Positions 4,221 through 54,009 of a stretch of DNA of 64,000 nucleotides are shown piece after piece. The first letter of the stretch is position 1, and every line of letters starts with the position of its first letter. The translations under genes and the position numbers were made by a program. This stretch comes from Lunularia cruciata. Taxonomy: Eukaryota; Streptophyta; Marchantiopsida; Lunulariales; Lunulariaceae. The notes beneath the pieces were generated by a model. The model did no database searches. It was not told the DNA's origin and saw nothing but the letters and a program-made list of their open reading frames with translations. The stretch is taken from positions 6,634,001 through 6,698,000 of the forward strand of contig OX419760.1 of assembly GCA_948567375.1 (NCBI GenBank), in the 5' to 3' direction.

Positions 4221-4221
4221 A

Positions 4222-18742: not shown

Positions 18743-18761
18743 AAGGGTCTTGTATGCTACC

Positions 18762-18874: not shown

Positions 18875-18886
18875 TGGTATCAGAGC
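18875..18886 (+). other. primer-binding site of element B
   Basis: TGGTATCAGAGC, one base after the LTR end, complementary to initiator methionine tRNA. Confidence 0.93.
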
Positions 18887-18895
18887 AGGAATGGG

Positions 18896-19111
18896 ATGGA
18901 TGGAATTTATGGACCACCAAATCCACTTCCGCCAAACCATTGGGACTTTCATGTCCAGATAGTACCAAAGCATCGTTTCACACAATTCATCACCTCACGC
19001 TTTGGGCAGGATTTTCTACATATGATCACCGTGTCACAGGAACCCTTGATACTTCCAGTTGTGACTTATGGAGAACGGTGGACGTGTTATATCTATGTGT
19101 TAATCAACTAG
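18896..19111 (+). CDS. leader ORF of element B, 71 residues, unknown function
   Basis: This intact frame runs MDGIYGPPNPLPPNHWD to CYIYVLIN before TAG. It starts 10 bp after the primer site and ends 33 bp before gag. Related frames exist in A, B0, E2 and the unrelated insert G, with a shared core of RFG followed by PLILPVVTYGE-x-W and a hydrophobic end. There is no transmembrane segment or recognisable domain. Conservation across families suggests translation or a constrained RNA function. It could act as an upstream ORF limiting gag initiation. Confidence 0.55.
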   Translation: MDGIYGPPNPLPPNHWDFHVQIVPKHRFTQFITSRFGQDFLHMITVSQEPLILPVVTYGERWTCYIYVLIN

Positions 19112-19144
19112 ATAAATTGAGGGTAGTGGATTAGGGTAGTAGCA

Positions 19145-20044
19145 ATGGCCGCAATACTAGATGTTATCCTTGCGATGCAACAACAAATCGAGCATCTTAC
19201 TTGATTGTTGGATGAACGAGACCAGCAACGACAAGAACAGATAGACAGAGTGCTAGTTCGAGATGGAGAAGATCGCATTCGATTTCCGAAACCCAAGGTG
19301 TTTGAAGGCAAGAATGTTCCAGGCACAGTGGAGAATTTTGTGTTTGACTGTGAACGTTACTTTGAAGCCACCAATCTTCAAGACGAGCGGAAACAAATTC
19401 TCTTGGCTTCTAGCCAGTTGGATGGCGTGGCAAAACTTTGGTGGCGATTCCGAGTAGAAAGAGCTGAACGACAAATTGTTACACCAATTTGGACATGGGT
19501 AGAATTCAAGGATGCAATACTTGGTCGATTTCAGACTATAAATGCCACCCAAGCTACACAAGATAAATTGGCGGAGTTGAGGCAGATTGGTTTGGTGAGA
19601 AGCTACATCACACAATTTCAGAATATCATCATGCAAATTCCAGATATCCAAGAAGGTGAAGTTCTGGATCGATTTGTGCGAGGATTGAAGTCACGAACCA
19701 GATTGGAGGTGACCATGCAAGAGCCACAGAACGTAGAAGAAGCCATGCAATTGGCTGAGCGTTTTGATTCCTTAGTTGCGACAACTTGGTCTCGACCTCG
19801 ACCTACACAAAACCTACTAGTACCACGAGTGGAAGAACCGGTACCAATGGAGATTGATGCTATCCAACGAAGACCACTTGGCACAGCAGATAGAGAGAGA
19901 TTACGACAAAATGAAGGTTGCTTTTATTGTCGCCAAGTTGGACATCGCATTGCTGAATGTCCACTTAGGAATGGGCGACCTCGACAAGTTGCCCAGATGG
20001 AGTTTGTGGAAAAGAATGATCAGGGAAACGAAGAATCCCAATAG
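19145..20044 (+). pseudogene. gag: element B gag, one early stop
   Basis: ATG at 19145 starts MAAILDVILAMQQQIEHLT, then TGA at 19202 (a CGA in the expected frame) and an open frame of 279 codons to TAG at 20042. The capsid-like core lies at about 19380-19760 (WWRFRVERAERQ, FKDAILGRFQTINATQATQ, LDRFVRGLKSRTRLEV). A CCHC zinc knuckle CFYCRQVGHRIAEC is at about 19920, and a basic tail follows. Gag would build the particle and package RNA. Restart after the TGA is possible but unproven. Confidence 0.93.
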
Positions 20045-21405
20045 GAGATTTCGAGCCGCGTACTGGGAGCTTGATTAGTTCCAAAGGGATTGAAGGCTCG
20101 ACCTATGAAAGTTTGCTTCACTTGCAAGGTACGATATCTAATCGGGGTTGTAGGATTTTGGTTGATTCTGGAAGTTCAGAGAATTGCATGTCTATGCAAG
20201 TAGCAAAGGAATTGGGTATTCCTATCAAGCCAGTGATTGGAAGTAGTTTGATGATGGCGGATGGTAGAAAAGGTTCTGCATTCCGTACCTCGCATCTTGT
20301 TACCTTCAAGATTGGGAAGGAGTATTTGGAGTGTATGAGGTTTGTAGTGGCACCGCTACACTATGATATCATTCTAGGTCTACCTGGGCTTGAACGTCAT
20401 AAGGTTCAATTCGATTGGACCCGACGTCAGATTCAAGTACAACACCAAGGTAGGAATTTCCGATTAGGTTGTCTGGCACCTTTGAGTAAGACACCTAAGA
20501 ATAGTCAGTCCCAAGATGGGAAGTTTGTTGAGAAGGTAGCCATAGAGCAAATCTGGAAGGGAGATGAGTCCCAAGATGGGAAGTTTGCCAGGAAGGCAAC
20601 CATAGAGCAAGCTTGGAAGAGAGATGAGTCCCTAGAAGGGAAGTTTGTTAATGAAGCAGCCATAGAGCAAGCTTTGGAGGAAGATAAGTCTATATTCGCG
20701 GTGTGGATCAAGCAGATTGCACAAGAACAATCTAAGGAGGGCCAAGTGCCGCATCAAGCAAAGGTTAATCAGATAGTTCAGGAGTTTGCAGATGTGTTTC
20801 CGGATGATCTGCCAAAGGGATTACCCTTTGATCGAGGTATGCCCTTCAAGATCGAGTTATTGCCAAGGAGTACTCCAGTGAGTAGACCAATCTATCGGCT
20901 CTCACCAAAGGAGTTGGAGGAGTTGCGAACAACACTTACAGAGTTGTTGGAGAAGGATTTCATACGACATAGTACCTCTCCGTGGGGAGCACCGGTACTA
21001 TTTGTTCCAAAGAAGGATGGAGGACTTCGTTTCTATATTGATTACCGTGGGCTCAATAAGCAAACCGTGAAGAATGCATATCCCTTGCCTCGGATCAATG
21101 ACCTGCTTGATCAACTAAGTGGAGCACACTACTTTTCCAAGCTGGATCTTTGTAGCGGCTATTGGCAAATTCTTGTTGAAGGAGAGGACGTGCAAAAGAC
21201 TGCTTTTCGCACAAGGTATGGACATTTTGAGTGGAGAGTTCTACCTTTCGGACTCACTAATGCTCCAGCAGTCTTCATGGATCAGATGCATCGAGTGTTG
21301 GAAGGACTATTGGATCGGTCCGTGGTGGTGTTCTTAGATGATATCTTAATCTATAGCAGGACAGAGGCAGAACATGTGAATCATGTGCAAGAAGTCCTAA
21401 GATGA
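20020..21405 (+). pseudogene. pol: element B protease and reverse transcriptase, up to first stop
   Basis: The frame opens at 20020, overlaps the end of gag and runs to TGA at 21403-21405. The protease core is [20 protein letters not shown] at about 20155, with D-S-G intact, then [14 protein letters not shown] linker with three imperfect repeats of SQDGKFVEK type follows (about 20510-20700). RT begins near 20790 ([12 protein letters not shown]) and includes [24 protein letters not shown] and the intact catalytic FLDDILIYS at about 21336. The stop is explained by CGA to TGA. Confidence 0.94.
20023..20029 (+). promoter_or_regulatory. putative -1 ribosomal frameshift site
   Basis: GGGAAAC lies in the gag frame as G GGA AAC, the X XXY YYZ pattern. 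Slipping back one base moves the ribosome into the pol frame, which is open from 20020 onward, while gag stops at 20042. Six bases downstream, TCCCA (20036-20040) can pair with TGGGA (20064-20068), a modest stem at the usual spacing. The same heptamer is known from primate retroviral gag-pro junctions. Activity has not been shown. Confidence 0.6.
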
Positions 21406-22240
21406 CTACGACAGTGGAAATTTTACTGCAAGAAGTCAAAGTGTGCTTTTTGGCAGAAGGAGGTTACCTTCTTGGGTCATAAGATCTCATCAGAGGGGAT
21501 CAAGATGGAAGAAGAGAAGATCAAGGCCATTACTGATTGGCCTACCCCAAAGGATGCTACAGAAGTACGAGCATTCAATGGATTGGCCAGTTTTTACCGA
21601 CGGTTCATCCACTATTATGCTCACGTGGCTGCACCATTGACTGACCTCTTGGGAAAGAACTTGAGCTTCCAATGGACCACCAAGCATGAAGAAGCATTCT
21701 AGAAGTTAAAGCATATGGTGTCTTCAAGACCTATTCTTCAACCATATGATCCTCAACTACCTTGTGTGGTTGATTTTGATGCTTCTAACTTTGCAATTGG
21801 AGCTGTGTTGCAACAAGAATTTCCAGATGGACTACATCCGATTGCCTTTGTGTCTTGTTGACTAAATACAGCGGAAAGAAATTACTCTGCTCGAGATCGG
21901 GAACAACTTGCAATGGTATATGCCACCAAGGTATGGAGGCATTATCTCTTGGGGAAACAAGTGATCATGCGAACTGATCACAAGCCATTGTTGCAGACCT
22001 TACACTTGGAGCACATGAAGAGCCGGCATCATCGATGGGAAGAGCAACTCCAATTGTTTGACATCAAACTTGAGTACAAACCAGGTCGGTTCCATGTCAT
22101 TCCTGATGCTCTATCACGACGACCTGATTTGAAGGATCTTCCTTTTATCACAGCGGCAATTACAACGGTGTCCATTGACCCTAAGGTCCACAATGAGTTT
22201 CAATCAGCTCTATGACAAGATCCCTTCTTCCAAATGGTAC
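21406..22240 (+). pseudogene. pol: element B RT connection and RNase H
   Basis: Same frame as the upstream part. It contains FYCKKSKCAFWQ, GHKISSEGIKMEEEKI and RAFNGLASFYRRFIHYYA (RT connection). RNase H follows with VVDFDASNFAIGAVLQQE, ERNYSARDREQLAMV and MRTDHKPLLQTL, so the acidic residues are present. Stops are TAG at 21700, TGA at 21859 and TGA at 22213, each a single transition from CAG or CGA. The end is FHVIPDALSRRPDL, the usual gypsy boundary before integrase. Confidence 0.92.
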
Positions 22241-23736
22241 ACGGTCGTTTGACAACATGCGACAAGGAGTACAACACCTTCTCCTTCAAGGAAGGCCTTT
22301 TATTCCATGCAGACCAGATCTATGTTCCAGCCAAAGGTGATCTTTGACTAGTGCGCCTTCAAGAAGCCCATGATTTACCAATAGCTGGTCACATGGGAGT
22401 GGACAAGACCTTGGGCACCCTCCAACGCCAATGGTGGTGGCCCAACATGACACGAGATGTTCGAGACTTTGTCCGATCATGTGAGAGTTGCCAACGGAAC
22501 AAGGCCAGCAACCAGAAGCCGAGTGGACTCCTTCAACCACTCGCCATTCCATCCGCTCGTTGGGAGCATGTGAGCTTGGATCTCATCACATCCTTGCCAA
22601 AGACAAAACAAGGACACACCGCAATCGTGGTGTTTGTGGATAAGCTTAGTAAGCAAATCCACTTGGCACCAACCTGTGATACCGTGGATGCTCCAACCTT
22701 AGCGCAAATCTACTTTGACAATGTCTTCAAGCATCATGGGATGCCATGTGTACTCATCTCCGACCATGATCCTCGATTTACTGGGAAGTTTTAGCAAGCA
22801 CTCTTCCAAATACTCGGCACCAAGCTTGCTTTGTCCACGGCCTATCATCCTCAATCTGATGGACAAACCGAATGTGCCAATCGTACATTGGAGGATATGT
22901 TGCGGGCCTTTGTCAATGTCCACCATACCAATTGGGATGAATGTCTTGCAGCTGCAAAATTTGCCTACAACAATTCCAAACAGGCAAGCACCGGATTTTC
23001 TCCCTTCTTTCTCAATTTTGGCCAAGATCCGCTTGTTCCAGATTCTCTTCTTGCTCCCCCTCCCTCGCAGGTTCCTCATACTTCCACATTCTTGACCACT
23101 ATATCCCAATCTCTCCAACAAGCCAAATCTCACCTCCTTGTTGCTCAGAATCGCCAAAAACAATATGCGGACCATCATCGTCGTGATCTCACCTTTGAAG
23201 TTGGTGATAAAGTCATGCTATCCTCTAGTAACCTCACTCTCCCACTGGATACCCAAGTTCGTAAACTTGCTCCTAATTGGATAGGACCCTTTGATATTAC
23301 CCACATTATCTCTCTTGTTGCTTATCGACTTGCCTTACCTTGTCACATGCGTATCCATCCTGTCTTTCATGTTTCCAAGTTGAAACCCTTTGTTCCTAAC
23401 CCTTCTTCCTTTTCCTCTCGAGTCCAACCTCCCCCTCTTCCTGTCCCTATCAATGATCATAAGGAGTACAAAGTTGATTGTATCCTTGCGCGTCGCCGTA
23501 TTCAATGCGGCCGTCGCCAACATATGGAGTACAAGGTCCTTTGGAAAGGGTATCTCCTTCATGATGCTACATGGGAACCTCTTTCTCACCTCCAGAATGC
23601 ACAGATGGCCATCAAGGAATTCGAAGCTTCACTGGCAACAAGGACGTCACCAACTAGCGGCGGGAGAATATGTAACAATATGGAGTTTAGTGACGAAGTT
23701 AGTCGGGCTTACGAAGTAGAGAATAAGACAAAATAA
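22241..23736 (+). pseudogene. pol: element B integrase with chromodomain
   Basis: The HHCC region is at 22350-22500 (HDLPIAGHMGVDKTL, then CESCQRNKAS). The core has SLDLITSLPKTKQ, VLISDHDPRFTGKF and TECANRTLEDML giving D, D, E. Stops at 22348 (TGA) and 22792 (TAG) interrupt it. From 22831 it is open for 301 codons and includes the GPF-type segment WIGPFDITHI and a chromodomain at about 23455-23640 (EYKVDCILARRR, YKVLWKGYLLHDATWEP). The stop TAA at 23734 lies 66 bp inside the 3' LTR. Confidence 0.94.
23657..23670 (+). other. polypurine tract of element B
   Basis: GCGGCGGGAGAATA lies directly before the 3' LTR. The same tract is before the E2 LTR (55174-55190, minus). Confidence 0.7.
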
Positions 23737-24093
23737 CCTAGAATATTCTAGAAGCATCTAAGAAGCTTCTTAGGAAGCTTCCCAACTAGTTAACTTGCGC
23801 CCTAAGCAGGTAGCTTCTAGAAGGAAGCTTCTAGAAGCTTCTAACTAGCTTAGCTTGCACGCCAAGTAGGCGGCTTCTAGAAGGAAGCTTCTTGAGAAGC
23901 TTCCTAGTTAACTTGGCTTGCACTCCAAGAAAGCGGCTCAAGGAAACTTCTTGAGAAGCTTCAAGGGTCTTGTATGCTACCTATAAATACCAAGGCCGAA
24001 GCTCATGCTAGGCATTCGGAGTTTTCCCTCATTCAAGTGTCCCAATGTGAGTTTCCATTCTCCTATTTCTCTCCTCGGTTTCGGTCGTTTACA
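23671..24093 (+). repeat. element B 3' LTR
   Basis: 423 bp with the same ends as the 5' LTR. It carries the same heat-shock-type motif array and TATA box, shifted by 5220 bp. The TAGCC duplication follows at 24094-24098. Confidence 0.96.
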
Positions 24094-24098
24094 TAGCC

Positions 24099-24411
24099 GC
24101 TTCTTTGTAGCCTACTATAAGGGAAGAGGACCTTTCTTCAAGAAGAGAAGAAAATACTCTTAGGAGGAAACTTTAAGAGGAGGACTATGAGTGCCTTTGC
24201 ACAAATGGAATTTAGGTTTGGACACCAAAGAAGAGTATTTACAAATGATACCACAAGAATTCTTGATAAAGACTTAAAGTGCAAAGTTTATTTGGAAGTC
24301 AAGCTTACCATCTATAGCTTAGACTATTCCAAAAATCATAACCCAAGTGCATCATCTTCCTTAGCAAACAACAAGGAAGGTCTTACCAACATTGTACCAT
24401 CATGGGATTTA
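24099..24411. other. unassigned flank between elements B and C
   Basis: About 310 bp. It includes a plus-strand open frame from 24187 (MSAFAQMEFRFGHQRR) that runs into the LTR of C. No family recognised. Confidence 0.35.
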
Positions 24412-27400
24412 TGTGGCAACTTGGCAAATATCACTTTTGAGGTAATCAGGTAAGTAAAGTTCATTCCCACAAAGATATTAGATAGAAATGTCCAAATATG
24501 AAGTCCAATGTCACAAATGTGGTTCTTCTTAATTTCTTCTTTAGACTCTTGGGTAGAAACCACACCCAAAGGAGAGTAACAAGCACTGATATGCAATCTT
24601 GTCACAAATTAACACTTCTTAATCACAAATCCACCAAATCTTTCCAAACAATCTTGATTGTGACGATTTAGTCTCTCCCAAGAATACTTCACTACAAAAT
24701 GACTTCACTTCAAAATTGTATTCCACCCCTCCACTAAAAGCACAACTTCCTTGATCAAAATTGCTTCATATCAACACTATGCTATACTCACTACTGCAGA
24801 ATACTACCAACACTACAATTCCTCTAAGATCTGTAATGACATTGCTTTGATTGCACATCACTTAGGATCAAACACAAAAAATGAAGATCAAGGTCTTGGA
24901 ATCCAACATCCAACACGCACATTGACTTGCACTTTGAAATTCTCCACACACTCACAATTACAAATGTAGAGTTGATACTCAAAATTAAGCTCAAGCAACG
25001 AGCACTACTTCAAAATACTTTGCTTTATCTATTCTTAGAATTATGAGCATTGAACAACAACATATTGCAAATGCCTCCTTTAAATAGGTAGAACTCTTCA
25101 GTAGTTATCTAACTAATATACCGTTTCCTAACAACTTCACCAACCTATAGATCCGAAACAACCATGCACCACTTCATATCTGCCCTTCAAAATATGAAAT
25201 CTATTGCTACTCCGATCCAATGTCTACTTCTTCTTCGGCTTCCAAACCTGAAGTAACTCCACATACTACTCTATCCTCGGTTTTACAACTACTAACTCTT
25301 CTACCAATTCTAACACCTCTTTCCCTTGATTTGCAATTACCGTCATGGGCAACCTACATACATCCTGCAACCCATCCTTCTCTAATACTTCCAATGGCAA
25401 CTCCAAAGATATTTTTACTCCTACTTATTCTACTTTGGGTCTCACTCTCACATCATTCCAAAGTTTATCTACTCCTAACTTAACTAAGTCTAATCTAATC
25501 GTGATATTGTATTCCACTTCCAATATCTTCCTATCTACACGAGTTCTAAGACTAATCACTAATGCATTCAAGTCCTTATCCTTTGCATTTCTTCTCCTCG
25601 TCTCTTGCACCAACAATCTCAACTCATGCAACCTCATTTCTTCAATTCTTATACTTGCTTTGGTACTCAACATTACATTCATCTTCACTACTATCTCCTT
25701 CAATGGCTCAAGCCTCATCCTTCTCTCATATTCCTTATCTGCCTGCCAATCTTCTTGGTATATTGCTAGTTTTGCCTCAAACTTGGCCTTCACATTTCCC
25801 TTCCCCTTCTCTTTTTGCACTATCTTCTCTTCCAAATTATGAATTAGTTCCCGCAATCTTTCTTCTTCTCCATACCGCATTATTAACTCTCTTTGCTAGA
25901 GTTGCGTCTTCTCTTTTATGCTATGCATCACTTGGTTGAGTTCTTGCTCCTTCTCTGCTGCCCTTGCCATGGCATAGATGACCTCTATTTGAGAATCAAC
26001 AAACTGCTACTTCAAGATTTTGTACTCAGCTATTTGTCTCTCCATGGCTATGACATTCTGCTCTATTATCTTATCTTTACTCTCTACTTCTATAATCTGA
26101 TTTTGTACTACTGAATCTACTCACAATATCTCCCTTTGCTCCTCTCCTTGGGTTCTACTCTCCTTCATCTCCAAGTTTTCTACTTCTAACCGGTCTAGCA
26201 CTTGCAACAAATTTTTTACCTGAGGATACTCTAGCTGCATTTCTTTCTTCTTCTTCCCTAGTGTCATCAACAATGAGCAGACAATCTCCCTTAGATACTC
26301 CACTCCTCTGGTCTGGGTATCTTCTTCTTGCGGCCTTTCCTCATTCTCCATCTTTTCTTTGCCTAACATTCTCCTTTTCAAGTAGAGTCATCCAATTGGA
26401 ATTGATTTCTCGCTCCTCAAACTCTCACTTTCTATTTCCTTCCTCCGACTTGGCCCCGTCTCATGTCTTGTGCTTCTTCTTGATCTGATTTCTCTCTAAA
26501 TGATAACCTTCTTCTCCAATTTCTCTAGAACTTCCTCTTCTTCTTTCAGGTTATCTTTGTCTGCAGTTTCCAACTTTCCCTCTAGTACTGGCTACATCTC
26601 CACTCTATCTTCACTCTTGCTACTTGTTTCACCACTTTGCAATGTGAGTTTGGGTTCCTCTTCTCTCTCCGAGTCCTCTGACTTGTACTTGGCCTCTACC
26701 TTCTGATTCTTCCTCCAACAATGTTAATACCACCATGTCCTTCCTTGGGTTCACTTTCCTAGTCTTTTGTGGTCTCACAACTACCACTTCTTCTTTGGGT
26801 TGACTCCTCTTCTTTGGCTTTGGAGCTATCACCGCTAATCTCACACTCTGCCCTGTTTATGCATAGTACTCATTCTTTGCTTCTAATCTAAAGAATGTAT
26901 TGTTGCTCATTTGCATCAACATCTCTCCTCAAGTTGGGATGGAAGTGCGATACCATCTTTTGTCATTGCACCGCATTTAGTAAATTTGATCCCAAATAAA
27001 AATGGGCTGCAAAAGGTACAATGTAGTGTGGAGGCGTCTTATCCCATAAATTCTACACCATCTGTCTTGTGTGCTAATAAAAGCACTTTGCCCAATTGAT
27101 GAGTTCCCTTGCAAACATCTTATGGAAAAACATTGCTTCGCGTTTCATTACATAAGTGGTTTGCTCCAGCTTGAAGATGACCATCATTGCTCCTATGATG
27201 CCCCTCCTCACAAGGTCCTTATAACTCTTGACCTTATATCCATTCTTTGTGCATTTTGAAAAAAAGGCGTCTCTTACTTCTTGGGTTTCTTTGGCTACCT
27301 CTCCTCTCCCCAAGAATGTAGCTCCTTGCTCCTTAACAGCCTCACCAGTACTAACCTCCAATCCAACTCTATCCAACAAGCCAGGATTTCCTCTCTTCCC

Positions 27401-34301: not shown

Positions 34302-34308
34302 AAAATCA

Positions 34309-35395
34309 TGTGACAACTTGGCAAATATCACTTTTGCGGTAATCAAGTAAGTAAAGTTTGTTCCCATAGAGATATTGGTCAGAAATGTCCAAATACAAAG
34401 TCTAATGTCACAAATGTGGTTCTTCTTAATTTCTTCTTTAGACTCTCAGGAAGAAACCACACCCAAAAGAGAGTAACAAGCACTAACGCATAGTCTTGTC
34501 ACAAACTAACACTTCTTAATCACAAATCCACCAAATCTTTCCAAACAATCTTAATTGTGATGATTCAGTCTCTCCCAAAAATGGCTACTTCATTGCAAAG
34601 CAACTTTGCCTCAAAATTTCTACCCCTCTACTGAAGGCACAACTTCCTCAATCAAAATTGCTTCACATCAACATTGCGTTGCACTCACAACCGCAAAATA
34701 TTACCAACACTACAAATCCTCTTAGATCTATCAAGGTATTCCTTTGATTGCACTTCACTCAGGATCAAACACATAGAATGAAGATCAAGGTCTTGGAATC
34801 CAACATCCAACATGCACATTGACTTGCACTTCTCCACACACTCACAATTACAAATGCAGAGTTGATACTCGGAATTAAGCTCAAGCAACGAGCATTGCTT
34901 CAAAACAATTTGCTTTATCTATTCATAGAATTATGAGCATTGAACAACAACACACTACAAATGCCTCCTTTAAATAGGCAAAGCTCTTCAGTAGTTATCT
35001 AACTAATATACCATTTCCTAACAACTTTACCAACCTATGAATCCGAAATGACAATGCATCTTTTCATATCTACCCTTCAAAATCTCAAATTTGTTGCTAC
35101 ACCAATCCAATGTCTACTTCTTCTTTAGCTTCCAAACCCAAAGTAACTCCACATACTACTCTATCCTTGGGTTTTACAACTAACTTTTTTACCAATTCTA
35201 ACACCTCTTCCCCTTGATTTGCAATTACCGTCATGGTCAACCTACATACATCTTCTTCCTACAACCCATTCTTCTCTAATACCTCCAATGGCAACTTTAA
35301 AGATATTTGTACTCCTACTTCTTCTACTTTGGGTCGCACTCTCACATCATTCCAAAATTTATCTACTCCTAACTTAACTAAGTCTAATCTAACCA
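34309..35395 (-). repeat. element C 5' LTR, truncated piece
   Basis: It matches 24412 to about 25500 along its whole length, with the shared start TGTGACAACTTGGCAAATA on the plus strand. It ends at about 35395, where the gag of element D starts. If the 3' LTR is 3.77 kb, about 2.7 kb of this LTR is missing. Confidence 0.8.
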
Positions 35396-44483: not shown

Positions 44484-44546
44484 CTTCTACACTATGATGT
44501 GATTTTAGGTTTGCCTTCCTTGGCTTGAACTTCATTAGATTCAATT
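44484..44546 (+). pseudogene. E1 fragment, B-family protease, left of element H
   Basis: The segment matches the B protease region (ACTATGATGTGATTTTAGGT, then CTTGAAC and GATTCAATT) and continues at 54010 after element H, showing that H jumped into an old B-family element. Confidence 0.75.
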
Positions 44547-45098
44547 CGTGCGTATATACATCGCTACACAACATACATCGCTGTCAACATCATACACTAT
44601 AAAAGCACAACTCACACATAAGTCATACATAGACTCTAAAGTGCCACAATAATCAGATTGCTTAACATTCTCAACTCAACTCAACTCAGATCAGTACTTG
44701 ATCTGTCACTCTATAAACTGCCAACAACTGGGCACTGATTACAGTCAAGCCACACCCACTCAAGCATAGAGAATCCAGGTGACGCTCGCCGGCCTCTGTC
44801 CACCATAGCCAGGAACTCGAAGGCTCAACATCAGAGAAGTGAGCTCTCTGGAGCTCACTTCGAAACTATACCCCCTGGACTCGAGCTAGCCCTGAAACCC
44901 TAACAGTCCCGCTGACGGCACACTCGACGGTGCAAACGGTGCAAAGTGACGGTGGGCCCCACCGTGAAGTCAGTACCCTGAACACAAAATCTAACCGTCG
45001 GAAAGTAGTCCCTGAGAAATAGCTAGAATAACTCTAACTACCATCACTGGAACTCCAGTGTCCAAGCATCTAGATGCGGAACTACAAATGGCGTGACA
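44547..45098 (-). repeat. element H 3' LTR
   Basis: On the minus strand it starts TGTCACGCCATTTGTAG at 45098 and ends near TATATACGCACG at 44547, about 552 bp. The first 430 bp match the right LTR (53580-54009). The last 104 bp (44547-44650) are repeated at 45101-45207. The old LTR at 3140 and 14832 has the same order of parts, which supports these boundaries. Confidence 0.8.
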
Positions 45099-45100
45099 GC

Positions 45101-45207
45101 TGTCGTGCGTATATACATCGTTACACAACATACATTGCTGTCAACATCATACACTATAAAAGCACAACTCACACATAAGTCATACATAGACTCTAAAGTG
45201 CCACAAT
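45101..45207 (-). repeat. extra copy of the LTR tail inside element H
   Basis: It repeats the last 104 bp of the 3' LTR almost exactly (ATTGTGGCACTTTAGAG to CACGACA on the minus strand). Only GC separates it from the LTR start TGTCACG. This looks like an LTR-end-to-LTR-start junction as in two-LTR circles, with the upstream LTR truncated. A polypurine-like CTAGGGGGGCGA precedes it. Confidence 0.75.
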
Positions 45208-45217
45208 CGCCCCCCTA
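45207..45217 (-). other. candidate polypurine tract of element H
   Basis: The minus strand reads TAGGGGGGCGA directly before the extra LTR tail rather than before TGTCACG. The G-run is the best purine tract near the 3' LTR. Confidence 0.45.
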
Positions 45218-45374
45218 GTTGGTGGTTAGGTCCCTCTAACTCCAGATAGCCATCTACTCTAAGTATATGGTATACCCTCTAATGGGCAAAGATCAGGAGG
45301 CCGGGTGCTATGGAGCCCCATCGTTAGTCGCCTGTCTGCAATCTATACCATATAAAGAATGAACTAGCTATAGG

Positions 45375-48062
45375 TCAAGTACATCTAGGACATAACCACT
45401 GTCCCTGAGGAACCACCGTGAGGGGAGGAGTCGTACATGCCATATGCCATCCTCTCGAACAGCTATCACACACTAACATAGTAGCAGCTCCACCAGAAGA
45501 GCCACATAACATACACCTCAAGCCTGCACGTACAAGTGCCAAGCTTGGGTCCATAGTACCATCAATGTTTGGGAGGTGGCATGGCGCACAATTGCGCACA
45601 TGATCCTTCCAAACAACACCATCACGTCCTTCTAACACAAGGACTCCAGATGGCAAAACCTCGCGCACTCTCAAGATAGTGCGGCCTATAGAAACATCAA
45701 GTGTCGTCGGTGCTGTCTGCTGTAGATATACATAATCGCCTGGATGAAATCGACGGATCGAGGGTCTATAACCTCCTCCTCGAATGGTAGCATAGTGTAA
45801 AGTATCTCTATGCTGAGCAATCGCCAAGTTCTCGAAGGCCATCGGCATCACTCTCTGAAAGATCTCTGCCCGCTGAGAACATGCGCTCATCCATACATCA
45901 GGGTCATCCAAGTCCAAAACTACAGTAGCATCTTGACGAATGGCTGCAGGTAAATCTGGATCTCGTCCATAGAGTAGAAAGTATGGAGAGAAGGATGCTA
46001 AGGAGGCTTGCCGGCTGAACCGATAGCCCATGGCCAACCAAGGTAACTGGAGATCCCAATCTCCCAAGTGGCCTCTCTGCAAACCATACTTTCGCAATCC
46101 TCTCTTCAACGTCTGAACCACTCTCTCTGCTAAGCCATCTGCCTCAGGGTGATCTCGGGATGTAGTACGATGATCAATCAAAGCCTTGTCACACAAGACC
46201 TGAAACTCTCCCAAGAACTCTGTACCCTGATCAGTCAAAACCTCAGCTGGTGCACCAAAATGACTAAGAACTCGATCCAGGAACGAGTAAGCTGTCCCTT
46301 CACTAGACTTGTCAGGAAGTGCCACCAACTCAATCCACTTGGAGAAGTGCTCCACCATCACCAAAACATACCGATGATGTCTCACAGTCAGCGGTAAAGG
46401 TCCGGCGAAGTCCAAACTCCAACGGTAACCCAATCCCATGATAGGTAATGGGTGTAACTGTGGTGTAGGAGCATTGAATGATGCTCTAACTCGGTCACAA
46501 ACCACACATCTGGCAACAAACTGCTGTACCTCGGTCTGCATACCGCGCCACCAATAATGACTCTGGAGTAAGTTATATGTACGCTTTACTCCAAAATGTC
46601 CTAGCTCCTCATGAGCATGACGGACCAACTGTGGTCTCTGTGATGGAAATGGTACTACTCGCACTCTACCATCCTCCCATGCACGCAAAAGGTGTCTACC
46701 CTCCAATCTGAACCGTCTGGCTCGCTGAAGAACACGGTCTCTCTCCTTGGCCCCAACTGTGCCACCCACAACACCAGTGCGAAGATAGTCCATCACTAAG
46801 ACATCATCATGAATGTCTCGCTGAACTGTACCAATATCTTCACTCTCTGGATCTGTGACCTCAATAACTCCTCCTGTATGCGCTGAGAGAGATACCACCA
46901 ATGTCTCTGCAAATATACACAGAAAGGCTGATGCATGCCAACCTGGCACCATCTCCTCATCTGTCTCACCATGCCAACGTGCTCCGGTCTGATCCTGCTG
47001 GCTGGGACATGGGTTTCTACTCAACCCATCTGCATCACGGTTCACCACTCCAGGTCTGTGAACAACCGTGAAATCATACTCCTGTAAAATCAGAGCCCAT
47101 CGTGCAAGCTTCCCTGAAAGCTTGTCGGACTCCATCAACCACTTCAGCGGCTGATGATCAATGATGAGAGTGAAGGGGTTACCAAATAGGTAACATCGGA
47201 AATGTGCTACTGCCCAAACTGCTGCCAAGCACTCTCCCTCATATGAACTATACTTCGCCTCCGCTGAATTGTTGGAGCGACTAGCATAGGCCACCACAAA
47301 CTCCTTCTCCTCATCATCATGTTGGGTGAGCACCGCTCCAAGCCCCAACATACTCCAATCAGTGTGAACCTGAAATGGTCGTCCCCTGATCGGTCTCCTC
47401 AAAATAGGAGCAGATGTCAACCTCTCCTTGAGCTCTACAAAAGCTCTCTCCTGCTCATCTCCCCAACACCACTCTTGTGTAAGCTTGGTCAGCTTCGTCA
47501 AGGCCTTGGCAATGGCACTAAATCCTCTAACATAGCGGCGATAGAAGTTCGCCAACCCAAGGAATGCTCGCACTCTGCTCACATTCGTAGGCCGAGGAAT
47601 ACGTGCAATAGCCTCCACCTTGGTCTGCTGAACACCAAGTCCTCCGGGGTAGATAGTGTGACCCAAATACTCAACCTGCTCATGGAAGAACCTACACTTC
47701 CCAGGATGTAATTTGAGTCCATGAGATCTCAACCTCTCAAACACCTCCAACAACTGTCGCTCATGCTCCTCCACAGTAGTGCTATACACCAAAATGTTAT
47801 CAATATAGCACCGAGCAAAATCCAGTCCAGCTAGGATCCTATCCATGACCCTCTGGAACTCAGCCGGAGCATTCTTCAACCCAAATGGTAAGAACCTCCA
47901 CTGATATAACACATCCTTGCCGTGAGGATCAATAGCCCAAAATGTTGTCTTGGACTTATCCTCCTCCCTGATCGGCAACTGATGATATCCCGCTCGAAGA
48001 TCCAAAGTACTGAAGACCTTTGCATGCCCAATCGCATCAAAAATCTCCTCCGGTGTAGGCAT
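45375..48062 (-). CDS. pol: element H RT, RNase H, integrase with C-terminal PHD finger
   Basis: 895 open codons, starting downstream of the true RT start because TAG at 48084-48086 precedes it. RT: FSTLDLRAGYHQ (17-28), PFGLKNAPAEFQ (59-70); the catalytic motif at 86-89 is Y-I-D-N instead of Y-x-D-D, so polymerase is probably dead. RNase H: D235, E275 and D302 region, ending DADGLSRNP. Integrase: HHCC (about 482-522), D551 (WSLDFAGP), D611 (LTDQGTEF), E646 (DGLAERVV). The last 46 residues form a PHD finger: C850, C853, C865, C868, H873, C876, C891, C894. PHD fingers usually read histone H3 tails, and here one occupies the place of a chromodomain. The PHD call is firm; its target is inference. 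Confidence 0.93.
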   Translation of the reverse strand: MPTPEEIFDAIGHAKVFSTLDLRAGYHQLPIREEDKSKTTFWAIDPHGKDVLYQWRFLPFGLKNAPAEFQRVMDRILAGLDFARCYIDNILVYSTTVEEHERQLLEVFERLRSHGLKLHPGKCRFFHEQVEYLGHTIYPGGLGVQQTKVEAIARIPRPTNVSRVRAFLGLANFYRRYVRGFSAIAKALTKLTKLTQEWCWGDEQERAFVELKERLTSAPILRRPIRGRPFQVHTDWSMLGLGAVLTQHDDEEKEFVVAYASRSNNSAEAKYSSYEGECLAAVWAVAHFRCYLFGNPFTLIIDHQPLKWLMESDKLSGKLARWALILQEYDFTVVHRPGVVNRDADGLSRNPCPSQQDQTGARWHGETDEEMVPGWHASAFLCIFAETLVVSLSAHTGGVIEVTDPESEDIGTVQRDIHDDVLVMDYLRTGVVGGTVGAKERDRVLQRARRFRLEGRHLLRAWEDGRVRVVPFPSQRPQLVRHAHEELGHFGVKRTYNLLQSHYWWRGMQTEVQQFVARCVVCDRVRASFNAPTPQLHPLPIMGLGYRWSLDFAGPLPLTVRHHRYVLVMVEHFSKWIELVALPDKSSEGTAYSFLDRVLSHFGAPAEVLTDQGTEFLGEFQVLCDKALIDHRTTSRDHPEADGLAERVVQTLKRGLRKYGLQRGHLGDWDLQLPWLAMGYRFSRQASLASFSPYFLLYGRDPDLPAAIRQDATVVLDLDDPDVWMSACSQRAEIFQRVMPMAFENLAIAQHRDTLHYATIRGGGYRPSIRRFHPGDYVYLQQTAPTTLDVSIGRTILRVREVLPSGVLVLEGRDGVVWKDHVRNCAPCHLPNIDGTMDPSLALVRAGLRCMLCGSSGGAATMLVCDSCSRGWHMACTTPPLTVVPQGQWLCPRCT

Positions 48063-48083
48063 GGCATACCGATCAGCCCTGGT

Positions 48084-48381
48084 CTATCGGTTGATAGGAC
48101 GATAATCTCCACACATCCGCCTATCTGTATAGTTGCCATGCATATCCTTCTTGGCTGGCATCACTATCGCTAAATGCATACTCTCCATGTGAAATCTCCA
48201 CCAAACCAGCCTCAAAAAGGTCACTACTCCGGCTCTGAATCAATGTCCTCTCCATCTCACTATATTGATAAGGACGTCGGAAAACAGGTGTGTCGCTAGT
48301 CAGCTCAATCCATATACCAGGTCCCTTCAAAGCACCCAAATCCTTCATACTGAAGGCAAAACAACTCGTGTGACTCCTCAA
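48084..48381 (-). pseudogene. pol: element H RT N-terminal segment with frameshift and TAG
   Basis: In the upstream frame the protein reads FRRPYQYSEMERTLIQSRSS and GLVEISHGEYA, the usual gypsy lead-in to RT, and then derails near 48175. The expected continuation (VMPAKKDMHGNYTDRRMCGD) is in the next frame and runs to TAG at 48084-48086, probably a former CAG. The two frames together give a normal RT start. Confidence 0.85.
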
Positions 48382-48483
48382 GAACCTCCAAACCCTTCGT
48401 CTTTCCTCTTCAGTAAGCTTGGGTCCAAGATCTGGCTCCCAAGTATCCTCTGTAACTGTAGTAGGAGTGGAAGACGTACTGAC

Positions 48484-48492
48484 TGGCTGCTA
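48484..48492 (-). promoter_or_regulatory. possible stop-codon readthrough context
   Basis: On the minus strand the stop that ends the methyltransferase frame is TAG CAG CCA. UAG followed by CAR-YYA is the tobamovirus-type readthrough signal. Downstream codons continue in the same frame into RT. It may be programmed or just another CAG-to-TAG loss. Confidence 0.4.
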
Positions 48493-49902
48493 CATTGGGC
48501 CCTTGGGAGCAATGGTGTCATGCTCCCGACCACTAGAGGTCCCAACCTCTGTGTGAAAAACTCCCTCCACTCTGGCTGCAAGCTCCATACGTCCTCTGGC
48601 TGCATCCCATGTGGACCAAGGGTGTAATCCAAGTAGCCCACGCTCACCTGGATGGACTCCAAGTAGACCACTCTCCCTAGTAGCTATTGGATGTGTCCCA
48701 AGAATACCATGTCCACTCGGTCCATCGCCCCCAGCATGTGCCTGAATTGTCTCGATAGGCACAGGGCTCATAAGTGTCCGAGTGGTGATGCCTATCAAGC
48801 GCATCCTACGCTGCTCTGCCAAACCAAGGCTCACAATCCAGGTCAAACAGTTCAGGTCCATAGCCTGACCTAACACCTGACGCCTGGATGCCTCTGACAC
48901 TGCTGGAACAGCGGTAATACCGGTGCGAAAACCCATCGCCCGCTCTCTCTCATCAGCATTGGGCTCCACCAACTGCTGTAACTGTGAGTCCCAAACAAGT
49001 CCAAGTCCTCCCTCTCGAAAAGCATGAGAGCCTGGGAAACTCATGAGTGTGGGAAATGCAGCTCTAGGCTGTCCAACTAGGTTCACCACTGCCATGGGTG
49101 ACCTATCAGCCACTACCACTGTCTGAGACTGACGTCCAGCATCCAAGATATCATCAACAAGAATGTGGTCTAGTCGCTGAATCCCATCATAACTACGCTG
49201 TAGAACCTCTCTGGGTAAAAGGTTCGTCCACCAAAGACAAAGACGATGAGCCCGTGATCCCACTCTGGCTGCATCTAACAATACAGCAGGTCCCATCCAA
49301 GAATGGACCTGATGTGTACTCGCCACCACTCTAGTGCGAGAATCACCCATCAATGGAACGTTCTCCAAAAGGTAAGCTGGAGAAACAGACTGATGAACCT
49401 GGAGATGTCGTAGTATCCGTAACATCTCCCAAAACACACCAGAACGAGGATCCTGAAGACCCAAACCGCGGCCCGCACGTGTATGTCCCTGACATGGCCA
49501 TCCAGAAATCACCAAGTGAATGGGCCCATGTCTCTCTAGGTCATGCGCCCCCAATAAGGAAATGTCTCCTGGTAAGGCCTTCTGGTAACCTCTGACTGCT
49601 GACATCGGTAATAACTCCGGATACCGATAGGCCAAGTGTGCCACATGATGTAGAGAGACTCGCCTAGCAGTCTCATCTCTCTCTACATACAAGTACCTCT
49701 GTACTCGGATACCCGCCTGTAACACCGCAGCTAGTCCGGTGTTGATCCCACCAAACAACTCTAATAGACATATCCCCTCTACTGGATACTGCCAAGCAAT
49801 GAGTGTGGTATCCAGAGGTGTCAAAGCAATCGCCTCTGGAGGCTCATCCTCACACTCATCCCCTGATGGTACGAAGGCTCCACTCCAAGCCTGCTGCACC
49901 AA
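48490..49902 (-). CDS. retrotransposon-encoded C5 cytosine-DNA methyltransferase domain
   Basis: 470 open codons in the same frame as gag-protease and the start of RT, between TAG codons. Predicted role: transfer of methyl from S-adenosylmethionine to cytosine C5. Motif I LLELFGGINTGLAAVLQAGI (47-66), motif II YVERDE (72-77), motif IV ISGWPCQGHTRAG (132-144) with catalytic C137, motif VI LLENVPL (178-184), motif VIII ARVGSRAHRLCLWWTNL (212-228), an RAMGF segment (321-325) and motif X RRQVLGQAMDL (340-350). The order is linear, not permuted as in plant DRM enzymes. AHR-x-x-x-W in motif VIII and RRQVLGQ recall DNMT3-type enzymes. All catalytic motifs look intact. A repeated GLLG-x-HP linker follows before RT. 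No separate reader domain is seen in this part. Confidence 0.92.
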   Translation of the reverse strand: MVQQAWSGAFVPSGDECEDEPPEAIALTPLDTTLIAWQYPVEGICLLELFGGINTGLAAVLQAGIRVQRYLYVERDETARRVSLHHVAHLAYRYPELLPMSAVRGYQKALPGDISLLGAHDLERHGPIHLVISGWPCQGHTRAGRGLGLQDPRSGVFWEMLRILRHLQVHQSVSPAYLLENVPLMGDSRTRVVASTHQVHSWMGPAVLLDAARVGSRAHRLCLWWTNLLPREVLQRSYDGIQRLDHILVDDILDAGRQSQTVVVADRSPMAVVNLVGQPRAAFPTLMSFPGSHAFREGGLGLVWDSQLQQLVEPNADERERAMGFRTGITAVPAVSEASRRQVLGQAMDLNCLTWIVSLGLAEQRRMRLIGITTRTLMSPVPIETIQAHAGGDGPSGHGILGTHPIATRESGLLGVHPGERGLLGLHPWSTWDAARGRMELAARVEGVFHTEVGTSSGREHDTIAPKGPM

Positions 49903-49914
49903 CTGATCTGCATG

Positions 49915-50364
49915 CTACTGCAATGCCTCCTCTGAACTCCACAATGGAACATCCAAGGTGGATGGAACAATCCCACTTGTACTCCATAGCCGAGTGATCT
50001 CCTCTGGTACTGGAGTATCCTCTGCATGGGCGTTCCCCTCCAACAAGTCACCAGGCCAAGTAACTGCACCGCTGAAAGCCAAAACTGATGCTGCCATGGT
50101 CCCGGACTGTAGTGAGCCAAGACTGCCACTACTAAAGCGTACTGGTAGGCGACATACCCGTCCCTCACCAGACTGCCAACCAGGTCTATAAGAGGCTGTC
50201 TCCTCCCAATAGTCAATACTGAAACCCATAGGGTATAACACTGCTCCCCCAACTAGCACATCATATGACTCAGCTATCGTCGCAATAGCCTGAGCTCTCA
50301 CCACCGAGCTATCAGTCGGATGACCAGGCTGAACCTGGACAACAAGCTCCCCACATGTGATGTA
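49915..50364 (-). pseudogene. pol: element H protease C-terminal part and linker
   Basis: Same frame as gag-protease, after TAG at 50365-50367 and before TAG at 49915-49917. YDVLVGGAVLYPMGFSIDYW resembles the retropepsin segment that normally reads YDVLLG. The rest (PVPEEITRLWSTSGIVPST) links to the methyltransferase. Both TAG codons are explained by CAG to TAG. Confidence 0.75.
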
Positions 50365-52776
50365 CTATGTCGAACCACCACCTAGAGATGTCTGGATCTG
50401 AAATGGACACCTCTCCACATTGGTCTTCCGTAACTCCAGACCAACAACTGCAGCCTTCCCCAACATAAGGGGCTGCGCACCAGAGTCTAACAAGACTCTC
50501 TGTGGTGTATAGACCTTCCCTGAAGGTCCTACCAAACGAAAGATCCCCCTCTGGTTATCCAATAGGACAACACCAGGTGTAAACCGCGCTCTCTCAAAGG
50601 CCGGTCTAGCTGGCAACTCCTCCAGTCTAGCCGCTGCTGCCTGCCATAAACCACTGGTCGCTGAACGGATCCCATGCTCCTCAAACAAGTCAGCTCCACT
50701 ACCAACCACCTCTGCTCTAGTAGTAGGAACTGCACCATCCCTACTCTCACACAACGTGGCAGCCAACCGGAACACTGGGGCTAGGTCCACTCCCAATGTA
50801 AACATGTCATTGGCTGAAAATAAAGGATGCCGCATAATCAGCTGAGCCGCCCCCAACATCATGCTAGACTCAGTCTGTGTAGTAGCAGGTGGCTGACTAG
50901 CAGGTACTCCATCAAGTACTCCATCACCACCTACCACACCTGCACTGGGACGTCTAGGAACCATGGATGTCGTCTGCAATGCCTCAGATAGCGTGAAAGA
51001 CTGGGGAAGTCTGACCTGTCTCCCAACCTCTCCTCTCTGTGGGTCCAACTCCACTGATGCTCCTCTAGGCTCTGGAGCACGTACTGCACTCCTAGTCACT
51101 GCTGCAAATGCATCCACCTGTGCTGCTCCGCACATGAAGTCCAAAGCATCTCTATCACCAGCATATGAGGTGGAAGCCTCAGCACCTGAATCTGATCTCC
51201 TATGAGCAATAGCCATACTAGCCAATCTCTGCTCCAACTGCTCAATCCGAGTAGCCATAGCTGTGTCAGAAGTAAGGGCAGGTACTGCACCCCTACTAGG
51301 TGTAGATCCTCTACCACCACCTCTACCACCTCGTCCTCCATGAACTGGAGCTCCTCTACTACCTGCCATAGCAGCCCTACCACTCCGTAACTCCGGGTGT
51401 AGGTCAAAACACCGGTCACTAGTATGACCAAATCTATGGCAGTGCTCATACTGCCTCTGTGCTGGCTGTGATGCACCAGAGGTATCAGGTCCGCTGCCCT
51501 GAGTACACTCTCTCCTATGGTGAGGTCCACCACAAGTCCAACAAGCAACACCACCACTCACTGGCTGCTGCTGACCCGAAAATGAGGGTAAGGGTCTAAC
51601 TCCACTAGGCCCTCCACTCGCTCCATAGGATCTGGGCTGTCCACCCTGTCCTCGAAAACCAACTGGGCGTGGTGCACTCTGCTGCACTCTAGAAGAAGTC
51701 ACAACCGTGGATGAGGTCTCTCTACCAAATCCAGCTGTCACCACTCTCTCCTCCACCATGTTGAGCTCAATACGCTCAGCCAAACCAAAGACTACTGCCA
51801 AAGTGGGCGAAGTAGCCTGCAACAATGTAGCATCACGAACTCTACGTCGCAACTCCCTGTCCAGTATCCCATACCAAAACTGGACTGCTTGGGCCTCAGT
51901 AACTCCCTGAGTGAAACTGATCAGCCGCCTCATGCGAGTGTATGCCTCGCGTAGGCTCTCTCCAGCCTTCCGCTGGAACTCTTGCAAGCTCCTCAGCTTG
52001 TCAGTCCGCACTCCCTGGTAGTTCTGCCTCAAACATAGGAAGAACTCCACCATGGGGTTAAACCCCGGTACCACACCACCTCCTGCAGCGGTACCTCCAC
52101 TCGTAGTAGCACTATCTCCAGCTAGTGCACCTCCACTAGCTCCACCAACACTACTCGAGCTAGAACTTGTAGGTACAGCCGACCTACTCCTGGCCACCGA
52201 ACCTGAAGTGATGGAGACATAGTGTGGAGACCAATACTGTCTCCATAACTCAATCTCCTCCAAATGAGCTCTCCTGAACTCATGGTAGTCGTCCATCGGT
52301 GGACCCTCCAAGTGCTGAAACAACCCCTTCCATGCCATGAAGGGTGTGAACAAAGTCGGGTTCCGCATCTGCTGCAGATCACACCAACTATCGAACTCCT
52401 GGATGAAGTCATCCAACTCAATGGTACCCACTGTACCAGAGTAACGCCTAGGGCCTTTGGAGGCCCCATAAATCTCGTCCATGTCCCACAACAAGGGTGC
52501 GGACACACCAAGTGCACTCTCAACTGAATCAGCTCTTGTGTCGAACTCCAACTCAGAGTCAATCTCCTCCCTCACTGGGACCTGAGATACAGGCTGATAC
52601 CGAGCACCACTCTGAGTAAACCCACTGCGTACTGCAGGGCTAACTCCTCTGGAATCTCCAAAGAACTCCGTCGTGACAAAGTAACCACACCAACAAACCC
52701 AAACCACCAACTGCAACAGCAAGTCGCAACCGCAAGTGCCCCACCAAGTGCCAACACCACCGCGTGCCAACACCAA
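50365..52776 (-). CDS. gag: element H gag and aspartic protease core
   Basis: 803 open codons. Met99 (52482) is a more likely start than Met1, because residues 1-60 are unusually rich in W, C and V. Gag: DDFIQEFDSWCDLQQMRNP (122-140), capsid-like NYQGVRTDKLRSLQEFQRKA (252-271) to about 345. Zinc knuckles: CWTCGGPHHRREC (412-424) and YEHCHRFGHTSDRC (443-456), the second with tyrosine for its first cysteine. A glycine- and arginine-rich patch is near 475-490. The protease core VLLDSGAQPLMLGKAAVVGL (761-780) has D764-S765-G766 intact. The frame ends at TAG 50365, 37 residues after the catalytic triad. Confidence 0.9.
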   Translation of the reverse strand: MVLARGGVGTWWGTCGCDLLLQLVVWVCWCGYFVTTEFFGDSRGVSPAVRSGFTQSGARYQPVSQVPVREEIDSELEFDTRADSVESALGVSAPLLWDMDEIYGASKGPRRYSGTVGTIELDDFIQEFDSWCDLQQMRNPTLFTPFMAWKGLFQHLEGPPMDDYHEFRRAHLEEIELWRQYWSPHYVSITSGSVARSRSAVPTSSSSSSVGGASGGALAGDSATTSGGTAAGGGVVPGFNPMVEFFLCLRQNYQGVRTDKLRSLQEFQRKAGESLREAYTRMRRLISFTQGVTEAQAVQFWYGILDRELRRRVRDATLLQATSPTLAVVFGLAERIELNMVEERVVTAGFGRETSSTVVTSSRVQQSAPRPVGFRGQGGQPRSYGASGGPSGVRPLPSFSGQQQPVSGGVACWTCGGPHHRRECTQGSGPDTSGASQPAQRQYEHCHRFGHTSDRCFDLHPELRSGRAAMAGSRGAPVHGGRGGRGGGRGSTPSRGAVPALTSDTAMATRIEQLEQRLASMAIAHRRSDSGAEASTSYAGDRDALDFMCGAAQVDAFAAVTRSAVRAPEPRGASVELDPQRGEVGRQVRLPQSFTLSEALQTTSMVPRRPSAGVVGGDGVLDGVPASQPPATTQTESSMMLGAAQLIMRHPLFSANDMFTLGVDLAPVFRLAATLCESRDGAVPTTRAEVVGSGADLFEEHGIRSATSGLWQAAAARLEELPARPAFERARFTPGVVLLDNQRGIFRLVGPSGKVYTPQRVLLDSGAQPLMLGKAAVVGLELRKTNVERCPFQIQTSLGGGST

Positions 52777-53579
52777 CTAAAACACCACCCACTAATGTAA
52801 CTCTAACCGAGATAACTACACTAGGGGAAGGGCAACCTGTAACCTGCCATCATAACATGCACTCTCACGGTCTGCAGGTCATCACTTCCTGCCTCACCGG
52901 AGAGAAACAAAGGTAGTCTGATTGGTCATCACTCCAGCCTCACCACCGAGAGCACACCAGAGCACCAACGCTCAAAAGTCAAGGCACCTCACACAAACGT
53001 GGTGCACAAACAGGAAGCAGAGAATGGAGGGGATCCAATCACAAGAAATCTAAACGAAAACCCTCCATCTCATAACACAACACGGGACTGACTCTGCCAC
53101 CATTTGGCATTTGACATAAGAGTAGTTCGTATCTAAGTCCTAAGCTACCAGGATCACCAAGAATGGGATCAAACTGCCTCTCCTAGCCAAAGCTACATGT
53201 GTATAGATAACAGTGGCACAGTCACTATGACAACAAGTGAGGGTGGACCAGTTGGCTAGGGCACCAGGAACAAGAGATCTAGGGGTCAAACCTTGTTGCG
53301 CACAATCTAGCAAGAAAGGCAGATTTTGCCAACCAATGACCAAGATCTACACTAAACTAGCTAGCCTCACGCCAGCAAGCTGGCTTGTTGGCCCTTCTGG
53401 CCCTTCTAGGCCTTCGTAGCCTCTCATAGCCCACAGCCCTATGCCTCGAAGCCTCTAAAAGCCAAATGAGGCCTTTCTTGTTGCCACTTCGAACCTCCTC
53501 CAAAATTGGCAAAACTTCTCCAAATCTGCGAAACTCCTCCAAACTAGCGAAACTTCTCCAAATCTGGCCAAACAGTGAA
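52777..53579 (-). other. element H 5' leader
   Basis: About 800 bp between the recognisable right LTR and gag. On the minus strand 53380-53580 has imperfect tandem copies of a 19-bp unit (AGATTTGGAGAAGTTTCGC and variants). TGGTGGCAGAGT (53091-53102) resembles the Met-tRNA primer site at 9 of 12 bases and could mark the LTR end, which would make the 5' LTR about 907 bp. 52830-53075 resembles the end of insert G. Confidence 0.5.
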
Positions 53580-54009
53580 ACTCAACTCAACTCAACTCAG
53601 ATCAGTACTTGATCTGTCACTCTATAAACTGCCAACAACTGGGCACTGATTACAGTCAAGCCACACCCACTCAAGCATAGAAAATCCAGGTGATGCTCGC
53701 CGGCCTCTGTCCACCATAGCCAGGAACTCGAAGGCTCAACATCAGAGAAGTGAGCTCTCTGGAGCTCACTTCGAAACTATACCCCCTGGACTCGAGCTAG
53801 CCCTGAAACCCTAACGGTCCCGCTGACGGCACACTCGACGGTGCAAACGGTGCAAAGTGACGGTGGGCCCCACCGTGAAGTCAGTACCCCGAACACAAAA
53901 TCTAACCGTCGGAAAGTAGTCCCTGAGAAATAGCTAGAATAACTCTAACTACCATCACTGGAACTCCAGTGTCCGAGCATCTAGATGCGGAACTACAAAT
54001 GGCGTGACA
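53580..54009 (-). repeat. element H 5' LTR, matching part
   Basis: It starts TGTCACGCCATTTGTAG at 54009 on the minus strand and matches the 3' LTR for 430 bp, differing at about five transitions. Past the GAGTTGA repeats at 53580 the sequence no longer matches the 3' LTR: the 104-bp tail is missing here. Confidence 0.85.

Follow-up and report, generated by a model that had tools for sequence, protein, structure and literature searches.

Retrotransposons that carry their own DNA methyltransferase gene (DNMT) have been described in dinoflagellates and in Klebsormidium, where KnitGypsy-Dnmt3 also has DIRS-like repeats (de Mendoza et al., 2018, PMC5890265). According to the relevant statement in a 2019 opinion, transposon-encoded DNA methylases are not found in land plants such as tracheophytes (PMC6338049), and streptophytes and dinoflagellates are once more the groups given in a 2025 paper (PMC12344493). 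Among the titles and abstracts listed from an open-access library, none reported such elements in bryophytes, which is not proof that no report exists. We analyzed 64,000 nucleotides of Lunularia cruciata contig OX419760.1 (positions 6,634,001 to 6,698,000 of the forward strand; hereafter the window), in which the initial annotation had placed a C5 DNA methyltransferase (MTase) within a Ty3/gypsy retrotransposon, noting such elements as reported in charophytes and dinoflagellates, as is indeed in print (PMC5890265). Judged by its sequence, the minus-strand interval 48490-49902 encodes a C5 DNA methyltransferase that belongs to a decayed Ty3/gypsy element spanning about 54009-44546, and the MTase is a trait of an abundant family, not of one copy.

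The 470-residue frame (49902-48490, minus strand) matched the Pfam DNA_methylase profile with an E-value of 1.1e-7 and 32 bits (cut-off 22), the check that the initial annotation had proposed for its assignment, and DNMT3A was the top match among solved structures (E = 1.2e-9). The catalytic cysteine claimed in that annotation was found in the window copy. Among 98 relatives, counting only the rows that cover a given site, the Pro-Cys pair was present in 61 of 63 and the Glu-Asn pair in 71 of 79, and the motif VIII residues Arg220 and Arg222 in 75 of 83 and 74 of 82, with Cys at position 222 in the window copy. Ninety genomic candidates were scored among 15,757 first-look candidates, and all spanned 468-470 of the 470 residues; the window copy was 100% identical, the other 89 were 96-98% identical, and 52 of the 90 had no in-frame stop. 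Chance motif matches are ruled out by the Pfam match, the DNMT3A match and these 90 of 90 scored copies.

A 32-base motif-IV pattern, allowing at most 3 mismatches, gave 1,977 + 1,989 = 3,966 matches in the genome of 565,766,749 bases, and a reverse transcriptase (RT) pattern gave 1,827 + 1,849 = 3,676; the reversed control of each gave 0. These counts indicate similar abundance of MTase and RT, not the presence of both in every copy, because the two patterns need not be equally conserved. If all pattern matches were full length, they would amount to about 37 Mb, or 6.6% of the assembly. The larger genome of L. cruciata, quoted as 565.6 Mb, has been attributed to Ty3/Gypsy bursts (PMC12885004, PMC9985172).

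The coding part of the element, including open reading frames (ORFs) 1 and 2, reads as follows in the window:

44546..54009, minus strand: whole element, A1-coding-B1-A2-B2, about 9.46 kb, delimited by its direct repeats and by comparison with 11 other copies; last terminal bases lost
50365..52776, minus strand: ORF1 part 1, gag (CCHC) and protease region, an open frame broken at 50365 in the window copy
49915..50304, minus strand: in-frame linker piece from protease to MTase, open in the same frame
48490..49902, minus strand: predicted C5 DNA methyltransferase domain and C-terminal extension, end of ORF1 (Pfam PF00145; DNMT3A)
48484..48492, minus strand: stop TAG CAG CCA, in UAG-CAR-YYA context
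48121..48381, minus strand: start of the RT region 3' of the stop, open in the same frame as the MTase
45375..48062, minus strand: RT, RNase H, integrase (H2C2, rve) and PHD finger by Pfam, frame shifted relative to ORF1 in the window copy
45381..45515, minus strand: PHD finger (Pfam PF00628, 1.9e-10; top solved matches CHD4, KMT2D and PHF12)

The Ty3/gypsy domain order of gag, protease, RT, RNase H and rve integrase was found by Pfam together with the upstream gag-protease frame, the gag match being weak (E = 0.029). The initial annotation had put gag-protease, MTase and the start of RT in one frame; they do share it, but in the window copy it is interrupted three times by an in-frame stop (50365, 49915 and 48490), and the frame changes before the long RT frame that begins at 48062. 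The window copy is decayed, with stops within ORF1, this frame change and one conserved motif VIII residue changed. Eleven further copies were fetched as 10-kb stretches, chosen for listed open frames of at least 1,428 aa, and in 10 of them gag-protease-MTase was one unbroken frame of 1,428-1,448 aa, with a stop in the other (L043). ORF2 was fully open (1,037 aa) in one of the 11, L045.

The MTase is followed directly by a conserved stop codon. In 45 compared rows, representing 38 distinct copies with the window copy included and seven places entered twice, ORF1 ended with TAG in 38 of 38, among them all 11 fetched long copies, and TAG-CAR-YYA was present in 37, the exception being L015. This context, the type I readthrough consensus of tobamoviruses (PMC3542737), occurred at 4 of the 2,043 TAGs on both strands of the window. 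In the family arrangement RT-RNase H-integrase-PHD finger resumes in frame after the TAG, and a 9,285-base contig, L063 (CADCWO010000201.1), 52% identical to the element in MTase and 66% in RT, has gag-protease-MTase, TAG CAA TCA and RT-integrase-PHD in the same frame. Since the MTase ends ORF1 at the conserved TAG, it is a Gag-side enzyme and RT-integrase would need readthrough; the claim that the MTase is part of the polyprotein is thus upheld as to the gag-pol frame and corrected as to its place, which is on the Gag side.

The domain has been kept by selection. Pooled pairwise Ka/Ks was 0.32 for the MTase (35 rows, 595 pairs, the window copy entering two times); the corresponding value for RT, taken over the initial 1,050 bases of its frame, was 0.28 (28 of the 35 rows, 378 pairs). 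An in-frame stop was present in 11 of 35 MTase rows and 12 of 28 RT rows. With the duplicate removed, nonsynonymous to synonymous changes in the MTase were 106:58 among private and 38:43 among shared variants (34 copies; Fisher p 0.009), and in RT 61:27 and 16:18, respectively (27 copies; p 0.035), so that shared, older variants are poor in amino-acid changes in the MTase as in RT. Private C>T/G>A changes per site were 0.279 at CG, 0.307 at CHG and 0.100 at CHH in the MTase, and 0.283, 0.267 and 0.049 in RT; the CG and CHG rates were about three to five times the CHH rate, a difference that was significant in both (p 7e-11 for MTase, 9e-12 for RT). This is the footprint to be expected of methylation at CG and CHG, so the copies have been marked, not hidden from marking, by whichever enzyme.

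In a 52-row MTase tree, built from DNMT3-type and element rows without DNMT1, CMT, DRM or DNMT2, 26 element MTases came together in a single clade (100/100), separate from the DNMT3s of plants and from DNMT3-like proteins of environmental origin, and the window MTase grouped with Calypogeia, Marchantia and unnamed rows (7 rows, 100/99). Two long rows, P0097 and P0183, are unsure in this tree, and 12 rows are of unlike composition. As to DNMT3 membership, the top solved match is DNMT3A, yet the element enzymes stand as a separate long-branch clade in a tree of that composition. Judged from these sequences, the element MTases are one old clade across bryophytes and green algae that is not derived from host DNMT3, and recent capture of a host DNMT3 is excluded by the tree. 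Among the 120 RT matches listed of 1,182, 14 matched the MTase model and 53 a PHD finger. In the search for MTase relatives, the named hosts of MTase-bearing matches are Calypogeia, Sphagnum, Marchantia, Riccia and Closterium, and partial MTase matches came, among the RT matches listed, from Tetrabaena and from a source coded Tetstr1, which we take to be Tetraselmis. One protein, P0099, is a complete RT-integrase-PHD protein 70% identical to the element over that span, and as it comes from a transcriptome, some relative is transcribed. On the RT tree the MTase label was patchy, with 9 changes in 36 rows, a patchiness that is uninformative because many protein entries may begin 3' of the stop. 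Another relative, P0086, has a methyltransferase followed by an integrase zinc domain.

Scanning genome contigs with the MTase gave six loci, namely the element-like L063 and five distant bacterial matches; a scan of viral contigs with the MTase alignment gave 17 pattern matches, none of them confirmed. L063 is filed under a cyanobacterial metagenome-assembled genome (MAG) and carries a Gypsy element of plant or algal type, and the two ends of the contig are identical over 127 bases; it is probably algal contamination, and the contig is likely an assembly loop. P0029, filed under a Candidatus Obscuribacterales MAG, is probably contamination too.

The host genome looks like that of a liverwort, in line with the plant context expected in the initial annotation. 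Among the 120 matches listed for the host DNMT3 exons (L061), liverwort proteins were the nearest: identity was 58% to Riccia fluitans, 52% to MpDNMT3a and 51-52% to Riccia sorocarpa; named ferns, lycophytes and Sphagnum gave 45-49%, and one partial lycophyte match 53%. In the tree this host DNMT3 was placed inside the liverworts (98/95). The host methyltransferase-like genes L061, L062, L003 and L004 comprise a DNMT3-like gene (Pro-Cys-Gln), a DRM-like gene with rearranged motif order, a CMT-like gene and a second DNMT3-like fragment, the DRM and CMT labels being assigned by eye. That a host methyltransferase gene recently landed by chance in a single element, the single-copy outcome that the initial annotation had itself set beforehand as its refutation, is extremely improbable. 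Nothing was found in its favour, there are 3,966 pattern matches genome-wide, and the tree places the host DNMT3 among those of liverworts and the element enzymes in a clade of their own (100/100) that extends over bryophytes and algae.

The element is also unusual in its repeats, which lie in the window as follows:

53580..54009, minus strand: repeat A1, 5' end, starting TGTCACGCC, 98.8% identical to A2; 4-bp duplications at the outer end in 11/11 other copies
45208..45218, minus strand: purine tract adjoining B1, polypurine-tract-like; G-rich tract at the same place in 11/11 other copies
45103..45207, minus strand: repeat B1, 98% identical to B2
44670..45098, minus strand: repeat A2, from copy comparison
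44546..44650, minus strand: repeat B2, 3' end, from copy comparison

The order A-coding-B-A-B was found in 11 of 11 other copies (B2 of L039 taken from its own locus, that of the remaining ten from L051-L060), which excludes A-B-A-B as an artefact of one locus. The B1/A2 junction consists of the element end, GC and the element start. Outer ends TGTCACGCC and CGCACGACA, read by eye in 11 copies, give TG...CA ends, and all 11 sampled copies have 4-bp target duplications (cact, cctc, gtgc, taga, gcat, cctt, aagt, acaa, actt, tgtg and gcta); the window copy has lost its last bases. Within a copy, A1 and A2 differed by 0.46-3.50% (11 copies). Two identical terminal long terminal repeats (LTRs) are not present, the 5' end being A only and the 3' end B-A-B. 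In L044 (8904-9456; L055) an extra A-B unit stands at the 5' end, followed by the same flank (cctt) as at the 3' end, and this duplication is odd because the same flank also adjoins the 5' A-B unit. The leader of L039 (1499-1615) holds an extra piece with a B-end beside an A-start, for which template switching is a possible source.

The window also has two Gypsy elements of the ordinary kind, at 3483-10092 and 18451-24094, whose plain LTRs are 96.9% and 99.3% alike, with apparent 5-bp duplications (gtagc, tagcc) and a primer-site-like tggtatc adjoining the 5' LTR. The split-repeat arrangement is therefore not general in the window. A 1.1-kb direct repeat (24411-25498 and 34308-35392; 87% alike, 9.9 kb apart) perhaps represents the LTRs of an old element. 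It is possible, though we doubt it, that A-B-A-B goes back to an ordinary LTR element in which the final part of the 5' LTR disappeared early in the history of the family: TG...CA ends, a purine tract and 4-bp duplications are features of LTR elements, A2-B2 would make one complete LTR, and additional B-A or A-B pieces are present close to the 5' end of L039 and L044. However, the arrangement is common to 11 of 11 copies, each of the two ordinary Gypsy elements described above is bounded by a pair of plain LTRs, and KnitGypsy-Dnmt3 is reported with the same repeat arrangement (PMC5890265).

DNA methylation is a main plant mark against transposons, and the element suggests a parasite that writes the chemical mark by which plants normally silence it. 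Considering the above results, we propose a model, to which we give about an even chance, of a Gag-protease-MTase ORF, readthrough for Pol, and a packaged enzyme that methylates the element's DNA ahead of its insertion. The sequences show the domains, frame, stop context, repeats, target duplications, copy number and selection; the activity of the enzyme, the readthrough, and the packaging, timing and benefit of methylation are steps that we infer. Most ribosomes would stop at the TAG and yield Gag-protease-MTase, and the few that continued past it would append RT-RNase H-integrase-PHD. The MTase would then sit in the particle at Gag-like amounts and methylate newly made element DNA before integration, after which the DDE integrase, possibly directed by the PHD finger, would insert the marked DNA and leave a 4-bp target duplication. 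DNA that arrives already marked might be taken for native heterochromatin, might be shielded, or might be tempered and so do the host less harm. Some retrotransposon DNMTs do methylate CG in yeast (PMC5890265).

Several observations weigh against this model. The KnitGypsy-Dnmt3 domain gave no methylation in yeast, a result that its authors call inconclusive (PMC5890265), and ordinary Gypsy elements amplify in the host without an MTase, as the two in the window do. The Gag-side position is not universal, because seven relatives (P0112, P0125, P0148, P0166, P0168, P0177 and P0182) run from MTase to RT without a stop, some of which may be spliced gene models, and because P0158 and P0159 show a second architecture with the MTase match between RNase H and integrase. 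Picking 29 of the 34 compared copies by MTase similarity favours low Ka, and the private-shared contrast is less affected. Host enzymes could account for the CG/CHG-type decay, since DNMT3-, DRM- and CMT-like genes are present in the genome, and CpG depletion does not single out the element, whose observed/expected ratio of 0.48 is not below that of its flanks (0.34 and 0.14).

Two other roles for the enzyme seem less probable to us than self-methylation in the particle. The MTase might act in trans, raising methylation on host chromatin or other elements, and so temper harm or silence competitors instead of marking its own cDNA. Thousands of gene copies could supply enough enzyme, and such effects have been discussed for Symbiodinium (de Mendoza et al., PMC5890265), but the Gag-protease fusion would confine the enzyme to particles unless it were cut free. 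Selection on single copies, moreover, favours cis effects, and we consider the trans role unlikely. We are equally sceptical of a main role for the domain in binding nucleic acid or methylating RNA during packaging or reverse transcription, with DNA methylation not its selected role. Its preservation by selection fits this role too, its DNA-methylating activity is a prediction, and RNA methylation has been raised in print for LINE DNMTs (PMC5890265); against it stand the retained Pro-Cys (61/63) and Glu-Asn (71/79) of the relatives and a top match to a DNA enzyme, DNMT3A.

With a land-plant transposon that has a selected MTase and thousands of copies, whether self-methylation helps the parasite becomes testable. 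The Gag-side MTase and the readthrough-type stop lead to a concrete prediction, that the enzyme is in particles. How the element completes and inserts its DNA is a clear question raised by its pairing of split repeats with a DDE integrase. The bryophyte copies narrow the statement of absence from land plants (PMC6338049) to vascular plants at most. We did not find earlier reports of a Gag-side MTase before a readthrough-type stop, a PHD finger beside a DNMT, or split repeats with 4-bp duplications.

In comparison with known systems, the tobamovirus type I readthrough site has the same UAG-CARYYA, which here would act between the Gag-protease-MTase ORF and RT-integrase, the likeness being one of context only. 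PAT has A1-B1-A2-B2 split direct repeats and DIRS-group elements encode a methyltransferase domain, as here, but PAT and DIRS have a tyrosine recombinase and no target duplication (PMC4157794, PMC3266345); with its rve integrase and 4-bp duplications, the element does not belong to DIRS/PAT. SymbioDIRS-Dnmt3 and SymbioLINE-Dnmt of Symbiodinium are likewise retroelements with their own DNMT, and SymbioDIRS shares A-B-A-B (PMC5890265), but they have a tyrosine recombinase or LINE endonuclease and other RT lineages, in contrast to the DDE integrase here. Tentatively, split-repeat retroelements, perhaps with joined-end DNA, may repeatedly recruit methyltransferases (DIRS, PAT, SymbioDIRS-Dnmt3, KnitGypsy-Dnmt3 and the family described here, SymbioLINE being an exception). 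In this family the enzyme, locked to Gag by the readthrough stop, would be in every particle in sufficient amount to mark free DNA before PHD-steered DDE insertion; such a strategy might have built about 4,000 liverwort copies and may have expanded the genome.

The closest known system, compared by description, is KnitGypsy-Dnmt3 of Klebsormidium nitens. Its DNMT lies in the Pol polyprotein ORF, whereas here the MTase is with gag-protease and a TAG precedes RT; a PHD finger is present here, and the word PHD is absent from the main text on KnitGypsy-Dnmt3 (PMC5890265). The K. nitens proteins that we found were RT-integrase proteins, one with PHD, and had no match to the MTase model. The element differs further in its land-plant host, its approximately 4,000 pattern matches and its 4-bp duplications. 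Both have Gypsy domains, a polyprotein DNMT, the A-coding-B-A-B order and a DNMT under purifying selection (PMC5890265).
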